The notes under the pieces are model-generated. The model worked only from the letters and a program-made list of their open reading frames with translations, searched no databases and was not told the DNA's origin. A program made the position numbers and the translations under genes. Of a DNA stretch of 47,052 nt, positions 18,274-21,618 are shown in pieces; within the stretch, counting starts at the first letter, position 1, and every line of letters begins with the position of its first letter. The DNA is from Ignavibacteria bacterium (GTDB lineage: Bacteria > Bacteroidota > Ignavibacteria > Ch128b): assembly GCA_016873845.1 (NCBI GenBank), contig VGVX01000012.1:1-47052 (forward strand), written 5' to 3'.

Positions 18274-18484
18274 TTTTCACCACAGAGGACACAGAGAGCA
18301 CAAAGTCAGAAAAAGTATTGAAAGATATTAATAAAATAAGTTATGATATCATTGGATTTGCGATGAAGGTTCAATCCGGACTTCAACTCTTCATCAATTT
18401 CAATGTGAAGCTATTAAAGGAAGGAATTAGACGATTTGTTCTTTAGTCATTTACATATTGCTCTGTGCAACTCTGTGGTGAAAA
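18274..18484. repeat. Inverted-repeat-bounded element holding a GxxExxY relic
   Basis: TTTTCACCACAGAG at 18274-18287 is the exact inverse of CTCTGTGGTGAAAA at 18471-18484. The similarity continues inward (ACAGAGAGCA against TTGCTCTGT). A third, diverged copy in the left orientation, CTTCACCACAAAGTTCACAA, begins at 18496. The repeats enclose the deleted GxxExxY gene, so the 211-base unit looks like a small mobile or repeat-associated element. Confidence 0.65.
18303..18446 (+). pseudogene. Internally deleted GxxExxY-family gene
   Basis: One continuous frame reads KVLKDINKISYDIIGFAMKVQ, then SGL, then LFINFNVKLLKEGIRRFVL and stop at 18444-18446. The first part is the conserved N-terminus of GxxExxY proteins (ISYEIIG.A..VH..LGPGLLE). 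The second is their C-terminus (LLINFNV..LK.GIRRFV). The middle of about 75 residues, including the GxxExxY signature and the PD-(D/E)xK-like acidic core, has been removed without breaking the frame. What remains cannot carry the family's activity. It lies between inverted repeats at 18274 and 18471. Confidence 0.75.
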
Positions 18485-21400
18485 TTAAGTGTTTTCTTCA
18501 CCACAAAGTTCACAAAGAAGCACAGAGAATATTATTTATCTTATTAATTATTTTCTCATTCAATCTTGGATTCGCTCAATTCAACGAGTATCATCCGGAG
18601 GTGAATTGGTTGACGATTGATCGTGAAAATTTTGCGGTTCACTTTCACGATGGAGCTGAACGCACGGCAAAGGTTGTCGCAAAAATAATGGAAGAGATTT
18701 ACGAACCACTGACTTCATTTTATGGATACAAGCCAGATAAAGTTCACTTTGTAATAAAAGATATAGACGATTATGCAAATGGAGCGACATATTTTTTTGA
18801 TAATAAAATTGAAATCTGGGCATCTCCATTAGATACGGACCTTCGTGGAACTCACAACTGGCTTCGCAATGTAATCTCTCACGAATTCACTCACATGATC
18901 CAGCTTCAAGCTGCCATGAAAGCACCGCGTACTCTGCCCGCACTCTATCTTCAATGGTTGAACTATGAGGACGAAAGACGGCCGGATGTTTTGTATGGTT
19001 TTCCGAATATGATTATTTCGTATCCAGTTCCAATGATCAATGTTCCCCCATGGTTCGCTGAAGGGACTGCACAATATATGCGAAAAGAATTCAACTATGA
19101 TTTTTGGGATTCGCACCGAGACATGATTTTACGTGAATACGTAATGAATGGACGAATGCTTACATGGAATGAAATGAGTGTATTCGACAAGACGAGTCTC
19201 GGCAATGAATCAGTGTATAATTCAGGATTTGCGCTTGTTAAATACATCGCTGAAAAATATGGTGAATCAAAATTAATTGAGATTAATAACAATCTTCGCT
19301 CCGGCTTTTCGTTTACAATCGATGGTGCGATTAAAAAGGCGATTGGAATTTCCGGAATTGAACTCTACGAAGAATGGCAGGATTATTTACGAAATGATTA
19401 CGAGCAACGGACACTGAACATCCGAAAAAACTTAGTTGACGGCGAAAAAATTGAAACGGAAGGATTTGGAAATTTTTATCCTACTTATTCACCTGATGGA
19501 AAAAAGATTTACTATATATCAAATAAAGGTGCCGATTATTTCATCAGTTCTTTATATGAATATGATGTTGAGAAAAAGAAATCAAAATTGATTCAAGGGG
19601 GCATTGGTTCCACTCTGGCAGTTAGCAATGACAACTTGAAACTTTACTACTCCAAGTTAACAGAGAAAAATAAAAATTGGGTAAGCATTCACGATATCTA
19701 TGTTTACGATTTGAAAACTGAAGAGGAAACAAGATTAACCTTTGGGATGCGTGCAAATAATCCTTCACTTTCGCATGATGGCAGTAGGATTGTTTTTATC
19801 TTTCAAAAAGATGGAACCATAAACATAGGAATAGTCGATACGGAAGGGAAGAATTTCAAAGTCATTACTTCATTTTCTAATGGGGAGCAAGTTTTCAATC
19901 CAAAATTTTCACCGAATGGTGAATTTGTTGTTTTTGATTATTCAATGAATAGCAGCCGAGATATCGCAAGAATTAATACTGATGGAACCGGTTTTCAATT
20001 TCTATTGAGCTCCACTCAAATTGATGAAAGAAATCCTGTAATGCAGAATGACAGCACATTAATTTATTCGGCAGACGAGAATGGAATATTCAATCTTTAC
20101 AGCATTAATTTGAATTCGAATAATAAGAGACAGTTAACAAATGTTCTCGGAGGAGCATTCATGCCGTCGCCTTATAAATCAAATAAAATTGTATATGCAG
20201 GATACGAATCGACTGGTTATAAAATATATGAACTGCAAAATACGAACGAAATTGATCTTTCAAATTTTAATTATTTACCCAAAACTGTTGGTGATGGATT
20301 AAATAAAAATACTAATTCGTTGTCGGGAGCTGAATTTAACTTTCAGCGATTGAAAAACTTTGATGATCGAATTACCCCAGATTATGAAATAAATAATTAT
20401 AAAGGCACATTCACAAAGCTCGCAATCATACCTTTTATTAGGTTGGATAATTACAGCAAGAAAGCAAAAGGAATTGAATTGTTAAAACCTGGAGTATATT
20501 TCTATTCAAGCGATATGCTTAACCGTTTCAACATTTTCGGAAGTGCCGCTATCAATACACGTTGGGAAAGAGATATTTTTGCATCACTCGAATATCGCGA
20601 TAGAATTCCAGGACTATTTTCACTCGGTTTGAAACCGGAAATATCTTTGCAAGCGTTCAATGTCAGCAGAACAAGTGAAAATGTTATCGGTTTGTTTCCG
20701 GATACTGTCGGTGGAATTATTAATTATGGTTTGAAAATACCAATAGAAGTTGGCTACAATCTCTTAGAATTTGATTTTATTGCCAAGCATCCGATTTTCT
20801 CAAAACTTCACAATCTTGAGCTTAAAGTTGTGTATAGCCGTTATGAGGCGATCATTGGAAGCTTTTTGCTTCCAGGTAATTTACTATATCCAACAACGCG
20901 TGATGTTTATTTGAAAGGATGGAATGTTGGACTTGCATACCGCTTGGAGAATTTTGACCGTACGAAAGATATGGAAATAAATCCTTATGGAACTAAAATC
21001 GATTTTCAATACGAGTACTCAATAAATGATTTTAATCCTGAAGAATTTTATGATGAGAATTCAGGCACACTGGTAACTCGATTTGAAAAGACTAATTTTA
21101 ATCGATTCGAATTGAATTTACTTCAGGCAATGAAATTACCTGGCTGGAAACATTCTCTCACTGTTCAGCTTCGCGGTGGGACGATTTTAGGTCCGCAGAC
21201 AGATGATTTCTTCGACTTTTATCTCGGTGGTTTAATCGGGATGAAAAGTTATCCATTCTATTCAATCAGCGGTAATGAATTCGCTCATGTTAATGTAACT
21301 TATAGGTTTCCTGTTTTTGAACATATCGATACGCGCCTTGGGCATTTATACATCGATAAAATTTATGCTTCTATTTATGGCGATTTTGGGAATGCATGGA

Positions 21401-21618
21401 ATGGAACTAGTACAAAGTTGAGTGATTTTAAAAAGGGAATTGGTGGAGAACTTAGGTTACAACTGAATTCTTTTTATCTTTTCCCTACGAGCATCTTTTT
21501 CAATGCATCATATGCTTTCGATGAGTTCCGAAGAGAAAATGCGTTTACTAAAGAAACAATCAGATACGGAAAAGAATGGCGAATGTATTTTGGAATTCTA
21601 TTTGGATTCGAATTTTAA
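18478..21618 (+). CDS. Surface metallopeptidase-like protein with beta-propeller and C-terminal barrel
   Basis: The start is uncertain. The hydrophobic signal RILFILLIIFSFNLGFAQ has no ATG before it, and GTG 18478 (VKIKCFLHHKVHKEAQ...) is the nearest usable codon, with TTG 18436 further out. The N-terminus is written by a CACCACAAAG repeat copy. HEFTH (residues 135-139 from GTG 18478) with Glu195 in PPWFAEGTAQY matches the zinc site of MA-clan gluzincins. Residues about 320-620 hold TolB/PD40-type propeller blades (YPTYSPDGKKIYYIS, NPSLSHDGSRIVFIF, NPKFSPNGEFVVFD). The last about 400 residues are amphipathic strands ending in FGILFGFEF, a terminal Phe typical of outer-membrane barrels. Probably an outer-membrane-anchored protease or processing factor. 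Confidence 0.8.
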   Translation: MKIKCFLHHKVHKEAQRILFILLIIFSFNLGFAQFNEYHPEVNWLTIDRENFAVHFHDGAERTAKVVAKIMEEIYEPLTSFYGYKPDKVHFVIKDIDDYANGATYFFDNKIEIWASPLDTDLRGTHNWLRNVISHEFTHMIQLQAAMKAPRTLPALYLQWLNYEDERRPDVLYGFPNMIISYPVPMINVPPWFAEGTAQYMRKEFNYDFWDSHRDMILREYVMNGRMLTWNEMSVFDKTSLGNESVYNSGFALVKYIAEKYGESKLIEINNNLRSGFSFTIDGAIKKAIGISGIELYEEWQDYLRNDYEQRTLNIRKNLVDGEKIETEGFGNFYPTYSPDGKKIYYISNKGADYFISSLYEYDVEKKKSKLIQGGIGSTLAVSNDNLKLYYSKLTEKNKNWVSIHDIYVYDLKTEEETRLTFGMRANNPSLSHDGSRIVFIFQKDGTINIGIVDTEGKNFKVITSFSNGEQVFNPKFSPNGEFVVFDYSMNSSRDIARINTDGTGFQFLLSSTQIDERNPVMQNDSTLIYSADENGIFNLYSINLNSNNKRQLTNVLGGAFMPSPYKSNKIVYAGYESTGYKIYELQNTNEIDLSNFNYLPKTVGDGLNKNTNSLSGAEFNFQRLKNFDDRITPDYEINNYKGTFTKLAIIPFIRLDNYSKKAKGIELLKPGVYFYSSDMLNRFNIFGSAAINTRWERDIFASLEYRDRIPGLFSLGLKPEISLQAFNVSRTSENVIGLFPDTVGGIINYGLKIPIEVGYNLLEFDFIAKHPIFSKLHNLELKVVYSRYEAIIGSFLLPGNLLYPTTRDVYLKGWNVGLAYRLENFDRTKDMEINPYGTKIDFQYEYSINDFNPEEFYDENSGTLVTRFEKTNFNRFELNLLQAMKLPGWKHSLTVQLRGGTILGPQTDDFFDFYLGGLIGMKSYPFYSISGNEFAHVNVTYRFPVFEHIDTRLGHLYIDKIYASIYGDFGNAWNGTSTKLSDFKKGIGGELRLQLNSFYLFPTSIFFNASYAFDEFRRENAFTKETIRYGKEWRMYFGILFGFEF

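Follow-up and report, generated by a model that had tools for sequence, protein, structure and literature searches.

How did a fragment of a GxxExxY gene come to lie between two perfect inverted repeats, and what does the combination say about this protein family? The fragment occupies a 211-bp unit (18274–18484) of a 47,052-nt contig from an Ignavibacteria bacterium (VGVX01000012.1), the whole of which was analyzed and is called the window here. The earlier note on this DNA had described a GxxExxY relic inside perfect 14-base inverted repeats, with the ends of the gene joined in frame after loss of the middle. Both observations held up. The arms, TTTTCACCACAGAG at 18274–18287 and its exact reverse complement at 18471–18484, form the window's sole perfect 14-bp inverted repeat with a spacing of at most 250, and about 0.1 perfect 14-bp inverted repeats would be expected in the window at a spacing of at least 100. 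Between them, a continuous open frame lacking an ATG at its beginning runs from 18273 to a stop at 18444–18446 and is translated as LFTTEDTESTKSEKVLKDINKISYDIIGFAMKVQSGL followed directly by QLFINFNVKLLKEGIRRFVL. When all six frames of the window were searched with an alignment profile built from 74 GxxExxY proteins, the top match was a stretch of 24 residues in the C-terminal part of the relic (i-E 4e-4, whole-stretch E 1.5e-4), with the runner-up at 0.8. The N-terminal part, IIGFAMKVQSGL, received no separate score from the profile and is assigned by pairwise resemblance and an 82% DNA match over 33 nt to a relative, L037. Curated family models called no family on the relic, the cut-offs for TIGR04256 and PF13366 not being reached; these models are too demanding for such a fragment. 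The features of the unit and its surroundings are collected in Table 1.

Table 1. Features of the GxxExxY relic and the adjoining DNA, in window positions.
Feature	Position	Strand	Description
Left inverted-repeat arm	18274..18305	+	TTTTCACCACAGAG-GA-CACAGAG-AG-CACAAAG; three iterons (CACAGAG, CACAGAG, CACAAAG) with a 9-bp period
N-terminal remnant of the GxxExxY frame	18327..18383	+	INKISYDIIGFAMKVQSGL; assigned by resemblance, 82% over 33 nt to L037
C-terminal remnant of the GxxExxY frame	18384..18446	+	QLFINFNVKLLKEGIRRFVL, stop at 18444-18446; best profile match in the window
Right inverted-repeat arm	18461..18484	-	Two iterons, CTCTGTG-CAA-CTCTGTGGTGAAAA
Separate third half-array	18499..18527	+	CACCACAAAG-TT-CACAAAG-AAG-CACAGAG; immediately 5' of the coding part of the next gene
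Two in-frame GTG codons inside the right arm	18475..18480	+	Putative new start of the downstream Peptidase_MA/PD40 gene (ORF 18436-21618)

Lost along with the middle of the gene are the GPGLLE..Y motif and the catalytic D, ExK, and Q residues, such that the relic contains neither the GxxExxY motif nor the PD-(D/E)XK residues. Having lost its active site, the window copy is a fossil. The earlier note had further proposed a MITE-like unit derived from an autonomous GxxExxY-carrying element. Origin from a GxxExxY gene with inverted CACAGAG-type repeats is supported, but the idea of an amplified MITE is not: the unit is present as one DNA copy in its own genome, and it is therefore better described as a decayed resident. 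The sequence CACCACAGAG, on the other hand, was counted nine times in the genome versus once for its reversed control. Rfam searches of the unit returned weak matches to eukaryotic microRNAs or scaRNAs, far below family thresholds, and an RNA family identity was rejected, such matches being attributable to chance on a hairpin.

Five further GxxExxY matches were detected in the same genome. One of them, L001, is a full-length gene (160 bits versus a cut-off of 35) flanked on both sides by inward-pointing CACAGAG arrays like those of the relic. The other GxxExxY genes of this genome lack CACAGAG, and one (L002) has a different inverted motif. CACAGAG hairpins also occur on their own (L010, L011, and L013), and hairpins of the window's type are multicopy; such gene-less partners, at about 50–100 bp, are shorter than the relic. 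In four genomes of the same family, the site that corresponds to that of the relic has a short, repeat-free spacer, and in a congener (G001) it carries a hairpin of another motif (CACAGAT/CACGGAT). Empty sites, one of the signs of mobility that the earlier note had called for, thus exist here as well as at the scpB and miaB sites described below. The relatives retain the native ATG of the downstream gene after their empty spacer. That gene likely now starts at a GTG within the right arm, its native start apparently having been displaced by an insertion that included the half-array at 18499–18527. Within 18436–18560 of the window, the native ATG is seemingly displaced, and the GTG codons at 18475–18480 stand before a signal-peptide-like stretch.

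To assess the repeat-gene link more broadly, 80 full-length GxxExxY loci were fetched from more than a dozen phyla, and 78 of these were included in flank tests. The sources include Bacteroidota, Ignavibacteria, Alpha-, Beta-, and Gammaproteobacteria, Acidobacteria, Verrucomicrobia, Chloroflexota, Planctomycetota, Nitrospinota, Cyanobacteria, Armatimonadetes, and a methanogen. The upstream flank matched the inverted downstream flank with a score of at least 16 at 38 of the 78 loci, versus 5.8% of mismatched pairs and 2 of 198 neighboring genes. In the 50 nt upstream, forward-oriented CRCRRAG was 33-fold enriched (1.19 versus a background of 0.036 per 50 nt), and downstream the reverse orientation was enriched 56-fold (1.40 versus 0.025); the motif was found on at least one side of 73 loci. 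Its variants, including CACAGAG, CACGGAG, CGCAGAG, CACGAAG, CGCAAAG, and others, are spaced 8–11 bp apart, mostly 8–10 bp, and the arrays have the outer-end consensus TT(A/C)ACC-CRCRRAG. The element measures a median of 472 bp between its outer iterons and has GxxExxY as its sole gene, and no neighboring gene recurred as a potential operon partner at more than 4 of the 78 loci. Among 198 genomes of the window's phylum, about half of which have GxxExxY, TIGR04256 is present in 35 of the 38 that have triple arrays, versus 66 of the 160 array-less genomes (p=4e-9, a statistic that ignores genome kinship); in the three array genomes without the gene, the arrays resemble plain 9-bp tandem repeats. 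A consistent link to such repeats, which the earlier note had raised as a possible clue, is borne out. Neither of the refuting outcomes set out in that note, a random placement of the repeats relative to the gene or unrelated flanks on full-length genes, was observed, although no more than about nine in ten loci display CRCRRAG on at least one side and some display other motifs.

Several locus settings were also recorded. By eye, the element lies between MoxR ATPase-like and DUF58-like genes at L076, L085, and L130 (two labelled Acidobacteria and one Armatimonadetes), which is possibly a recurrent target or an old inheritance. In two betaproteobacterial MAGs (L077 and L082), it is located directly 5' of an anthranilate synthase component II (trpG)-like gene. 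The possibility that GxxExxY is a phage gene was rejected since there were no matches in 50,697 phage records, a single match on viral contigs, and eight distant ones on plasmids. The viral locus, L184, has inverted CACAAAG/CACGAAG iterons on both sides.

GxxExxY proteins constitute the family TIGR04256/PF13366 (PDDEXK_3) of the PD-(D/E)XK nucleases. D62, E72, and K74 are invariant in the 74 sequences, Q86 and Y90 are nearly so, and full-length members keep both the GxxExxY motif and the PD-(D/E)XK residues. No homologue was found by sequence search among solved structures. An AlphaFold prediction (pLDDT 95.9) was compared with solved folds using Foldseek; the best entries were 6m9k, 4ic1, and 3syy at modest E values (4e-3 to 9e-3), and the nearest folds are those of lambda exonuclease, Cas4 SSO0001, and LHK-Exo. 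GxxExxY is thus predicted to be a minimal PD-(D/E)XK nuclease of the Cas4/lambda-exonuclease kind.

Filled, decayed, and empty versions of one site were found next to scpB in a single genus, in a comparison between species rather than strains. The full element is present in four species (G128, G085, G061, and G190), and in three more distant ones (G094, G098, and G201) the site is empty and the two genes almost touch. In G071 all that is left of the decayed element is the outer arms and the C-terminal end of the gene, a state close to that of the relic in the window. With such an allele at an orthologous filled/empty site, decay in place is shown to produce relics of this kind. The 5' half of the GxxExxY gene in G190 (L208) is like its orthologues and the 3' half has been swapped for diverged sequence, as after gene conversion. 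Direct repeats of at least 6 nt were found by the element ends at 7 of 42 loci (two of the seven being tandem units) versus 8.6% of shuffled pairs. Target duplications, which the earlier note had suggested looking for, were therefore not detected above chance at these 42 loci.

Gene-less hairpins can be abundant. The genomes of L127, L116, L097, and L105 have 83, 90, 51, and 54 arrays, respectively, versus none for the reversed control, and dimer arrays number 81 in G036 and 42 in G018. Among the arrays listed for the genome of L127, nearly all are CACAGAG, the same type as that of the resident gene, and the composite CGCGGAG-GCG-CACAGAG-GCG-CGCGGAG of G025 is found at the gene as well as in dispersed copies. 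G209 is an exception, as its one resident gene differs in type from its 28 arrays. Across 56 loci, protein distance was correlated with iteron type (Mantel r 0.26, 0/2000 permutations), also after correction for GC content (r 0.18, 0/2000). The two forms meet in G002, a member of the window's family, where tandem 100-bp hairpins are arranged with three before and five after the gene (L038, 1164–2357) and the GxxExxY gene lies in the A-rich loop of one hairpin unit; L075, L095, and L241 have similar settings. The type match and the gene-in-loop arrangement together indicate that a single unit exists with and without the gene. The hairpin copies of L038 seem to vary chiefly at the A/G position of the iteron. 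One hairpin common to G036 and G018 has perfectly preserved arms amid diverged sequence, and comparison of these two genomes yielded no clean empty site.

The most detailed series comes from the spacer that separates miaB from a sigma-54 regulator gene, which was compared over 250 species of what appears to be a Flavobacterium-like genus. An element is present in 30 fetched species and falls into three types, A (GCCACAGATTAAAATGATT), B (GCCACGAATTTCACTAATT), and C. The motif determined the type, with manual assignment or correction for five rows. Mean protein identity is 86% within A, 80% within B, and 64% between A and B, whereas the identity of the flanking genes is equal within and between types. 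On a quick flank tree with many weak forks, the type changed 14 times (shuffled mean 12.8) with no clustering, and type A as a single clade was rejected (p 2e-6). Up to the repeat end, spacer differences correlate with the species (r 0.34, 0/2000); with the type there is no such correlation (r -0.01), and an A species (G466) and a B species (G423) have an identical 18-nt spacer. We conclude from the alternation of types and the species-tracking spacer that whole cassettes, protein and repeats together, have been exchanged at one site among relatives; the breakpoints of the swaps are the repeat ends. Among elements of one type, protein distance rises with flank distance (r 0.75 and 0.82), and copies fetched from other sites reached at most about 48% identity. 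The types appear to behave as long-lived alleles, for which allelic exchange among relatives fits better than free hopping. Other species have short hairpins of another motif at the miaB site or an empty site (G241), and a second site beside hemW has full elements or hairpins of two other motifs. Inserts of ~600 nt at the miaB site of further species were considered and rejected as GxxExxY. At four of the miaB-site loci (L300, L302, L303, and L304), a 173-aa membrane-protein-like ORF that is not GxxExxY lies inside inverted TTGAAAC/CTGAAAC iterons, a further repeat type that here lacks the nuclease gene.

Based on these comparisons, we read the feature as a decayed single-gene nuclease element, with a probability of roughly two in three; its nuclease would bind and cut its own iterons, and it would spread by break repair. 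The intact element would be ~0.45–0.6 kb long, with one GxxExxY gene between inverted arrays in which a ~7-bp iteron recurs about once per helical turn and which end in TT(A/C)ACC. The nuclease may bind these iterons and cut them, or cut a hairpin or cruciform that they form, and repair of the break from a copy would spread the element in a homing- or replacement-like fashion instead of by a cut-and-paste transposase. Several points count against this reading: the element encodes no strand-transfer enzyme, target duplications were not detected, the miaB-site types behave like alleles, and genomes such as G209 have many arrays that do not match the resident gene. The short hairpins would be non-autonomous partners of the nuclease, and the window copy, lacking an active site, would be a fossil of such an element. 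At the level of sequence, the comparisons show arrays and gene behaving as one unit, with iteron type and protein changing together and matching gene-less hairpins scattered in the same genome. They likewise show insertion of the unit between ordinary genes, decay in place, and replacement of one type by another at a fixed site; mobility itself we infer. That relatives insert, decay, and swap at one spot suggests a selfish or cassette-like role for the family. We propose tentatively, at somewhat less than even odds, that GxxExxY proteins are the drivers of an undescribed class of selfish DNA characterized by a lone Cas4/lambda-exonuclease-like nuclease that would recognize iterons at its own ends and maintain cognate hairpins in the genome. 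In such a selfish-DNA reading, spread by replacing the resident element at fixed intergenic sites would cause nuclease and repeat specificity to diversify together.

The most serious rival, which we regard as unlikely, is an allelic nuclease system maintained by frequency-dependent selection, for example against phages, plasmids, or rival strains, in which the repeats would be self-marking or regulatory sites and cassettes would be exchanged, with movement being incidental. Three diverged types alternating at one site without phylogenetic clustering are what such selection would give, and the conserved active site and the tracking of host flanks by each type also fit. However, a defense cassette has no need of the tens of dispersed gene-less hairpins that some genomes have or of a tandem hairpin array enclosing one gene, and most loci lack a recurring partner gene. 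An improbable alternative is that the hairpins are signals useful to the host (terminators or sites for nucleoid proteins or regulators) among which the GxxExxY gene just happens to be located. Their intergenic position, the preservation of arms in the hairpin common to G036 and G018, and the interpretation of inverted tandem octanucleotide pairs in Geobacter metallireducens as regulator sites (PMC2700814) are in keeping with this idea. Host signals would not be expected to come and go or to switch motif at the same site among relatives, to match the resident nuclease in type, or to displace a start codon as in the window. More improbable still is a classical MITE family mobilized in trans by an unrelated transposase with GxxExxY as a passenger: inverted repeats, short gene-less copies, and an internally deleted relic are its hallmarks, but at loci of many phyla the repeats enclose GxxExxY and no other gene, the arrays track the presence and type of GxxExxY, and target duplications were not found. 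Finally, the chance placement of a gene fragment beside unrelated repeats has nothing in its favor other than the single-copy status of the 211-bp unit, is contradicted by all of the enrichment tests, and can be dismissed.

Should the nuclease-element reading be correct, a large and widespread family of hitherto unassigned role would gain a testable one, with a putative binding motif for each protein. The filled, decayed, and empty sites form a natural series, and in the A/B/C allele sets protein and motif switch together. The element may likewise account for the intergenic hairpins, CACAGAG-type and relatives, that form a widespread class, and it points to homing-like spread without a transposase.

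How does the element compare with known systems? A search of the open literature by repeat sequence returned nothing, and a passage naming GxxExxY in an open paper had no bearing on function. The closest described repeat architecture is that of G. metallireducens, in which tandem octanucleotides occur as inverted pairs at many intergenic places and were interpreted as global regulator sites; the architecture is alike, but the motif there is GTTGCTYN and no link to a gene was drawn (PMC2700814). MITEs of insertion sequences share with the element the terminal inverted repeats and the short gene-less and internally deleted copies. The GxxExxY element differs in that it lacks a transposase from the known transposing classes, target duplications were not detected, its repeat ends vary in type with the protein, and the window unit has a single copy in place of multiple near-identical ones. 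Cas4, lambda exonuclease, and LHK-Exo resemble GxxExxY in its predicted fold and have the same D, ExK, QxxxY pattern, but GxxExxY proteins have about 117–124 residues, lack the iron-sulfur cluster region, and are unrelated to them by sequence search.

Homing endonuclease genes are lone small nuclease genes, PD-(D/E)XK ones included, that reside in an intron or intein, replace alleles at a fixed site, and decay as copies. The GxxExxY element is similarly a lone small nuclease gene with the PD-(D/E)XK fold and decaying copies, and repeated fixed-site replacement with precise boundaries was found in the Flavobacterium-like relatives, though not for the window copy. Unlike homing genes, it is intergenic and carries inverted iteron arrays. 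The closest working analogue is REPIN/RAYT, which consists of short dispersed intergenic palindromes and a gene flanked by inverted copies of them, each type having one nuclease gene that shares its genome with the cognate repeats (PMC3116915, PMC8266576); REPs end in a GTAG/CGTC tag (PMC3733652). Dispersed palindromes, inverted copies flanking the GxxExxY gene, and one nuclease gene per type with cognate repeats in the same genome are all found here. The differences are that the GxxExxY protein is a PD-(D/E)XK (PDDEXK_3) and not an HUH/Y1 enzyme, the arms are arrays of a 7-bp iteron, the outer end is TT(A/C)ACC-CRCRRAG in place of the GTAG/CGTC tag, and alleles swap at a fixed site. The best reading is that the element works like REPIN/RAYT or homing genes and belongs to neither.
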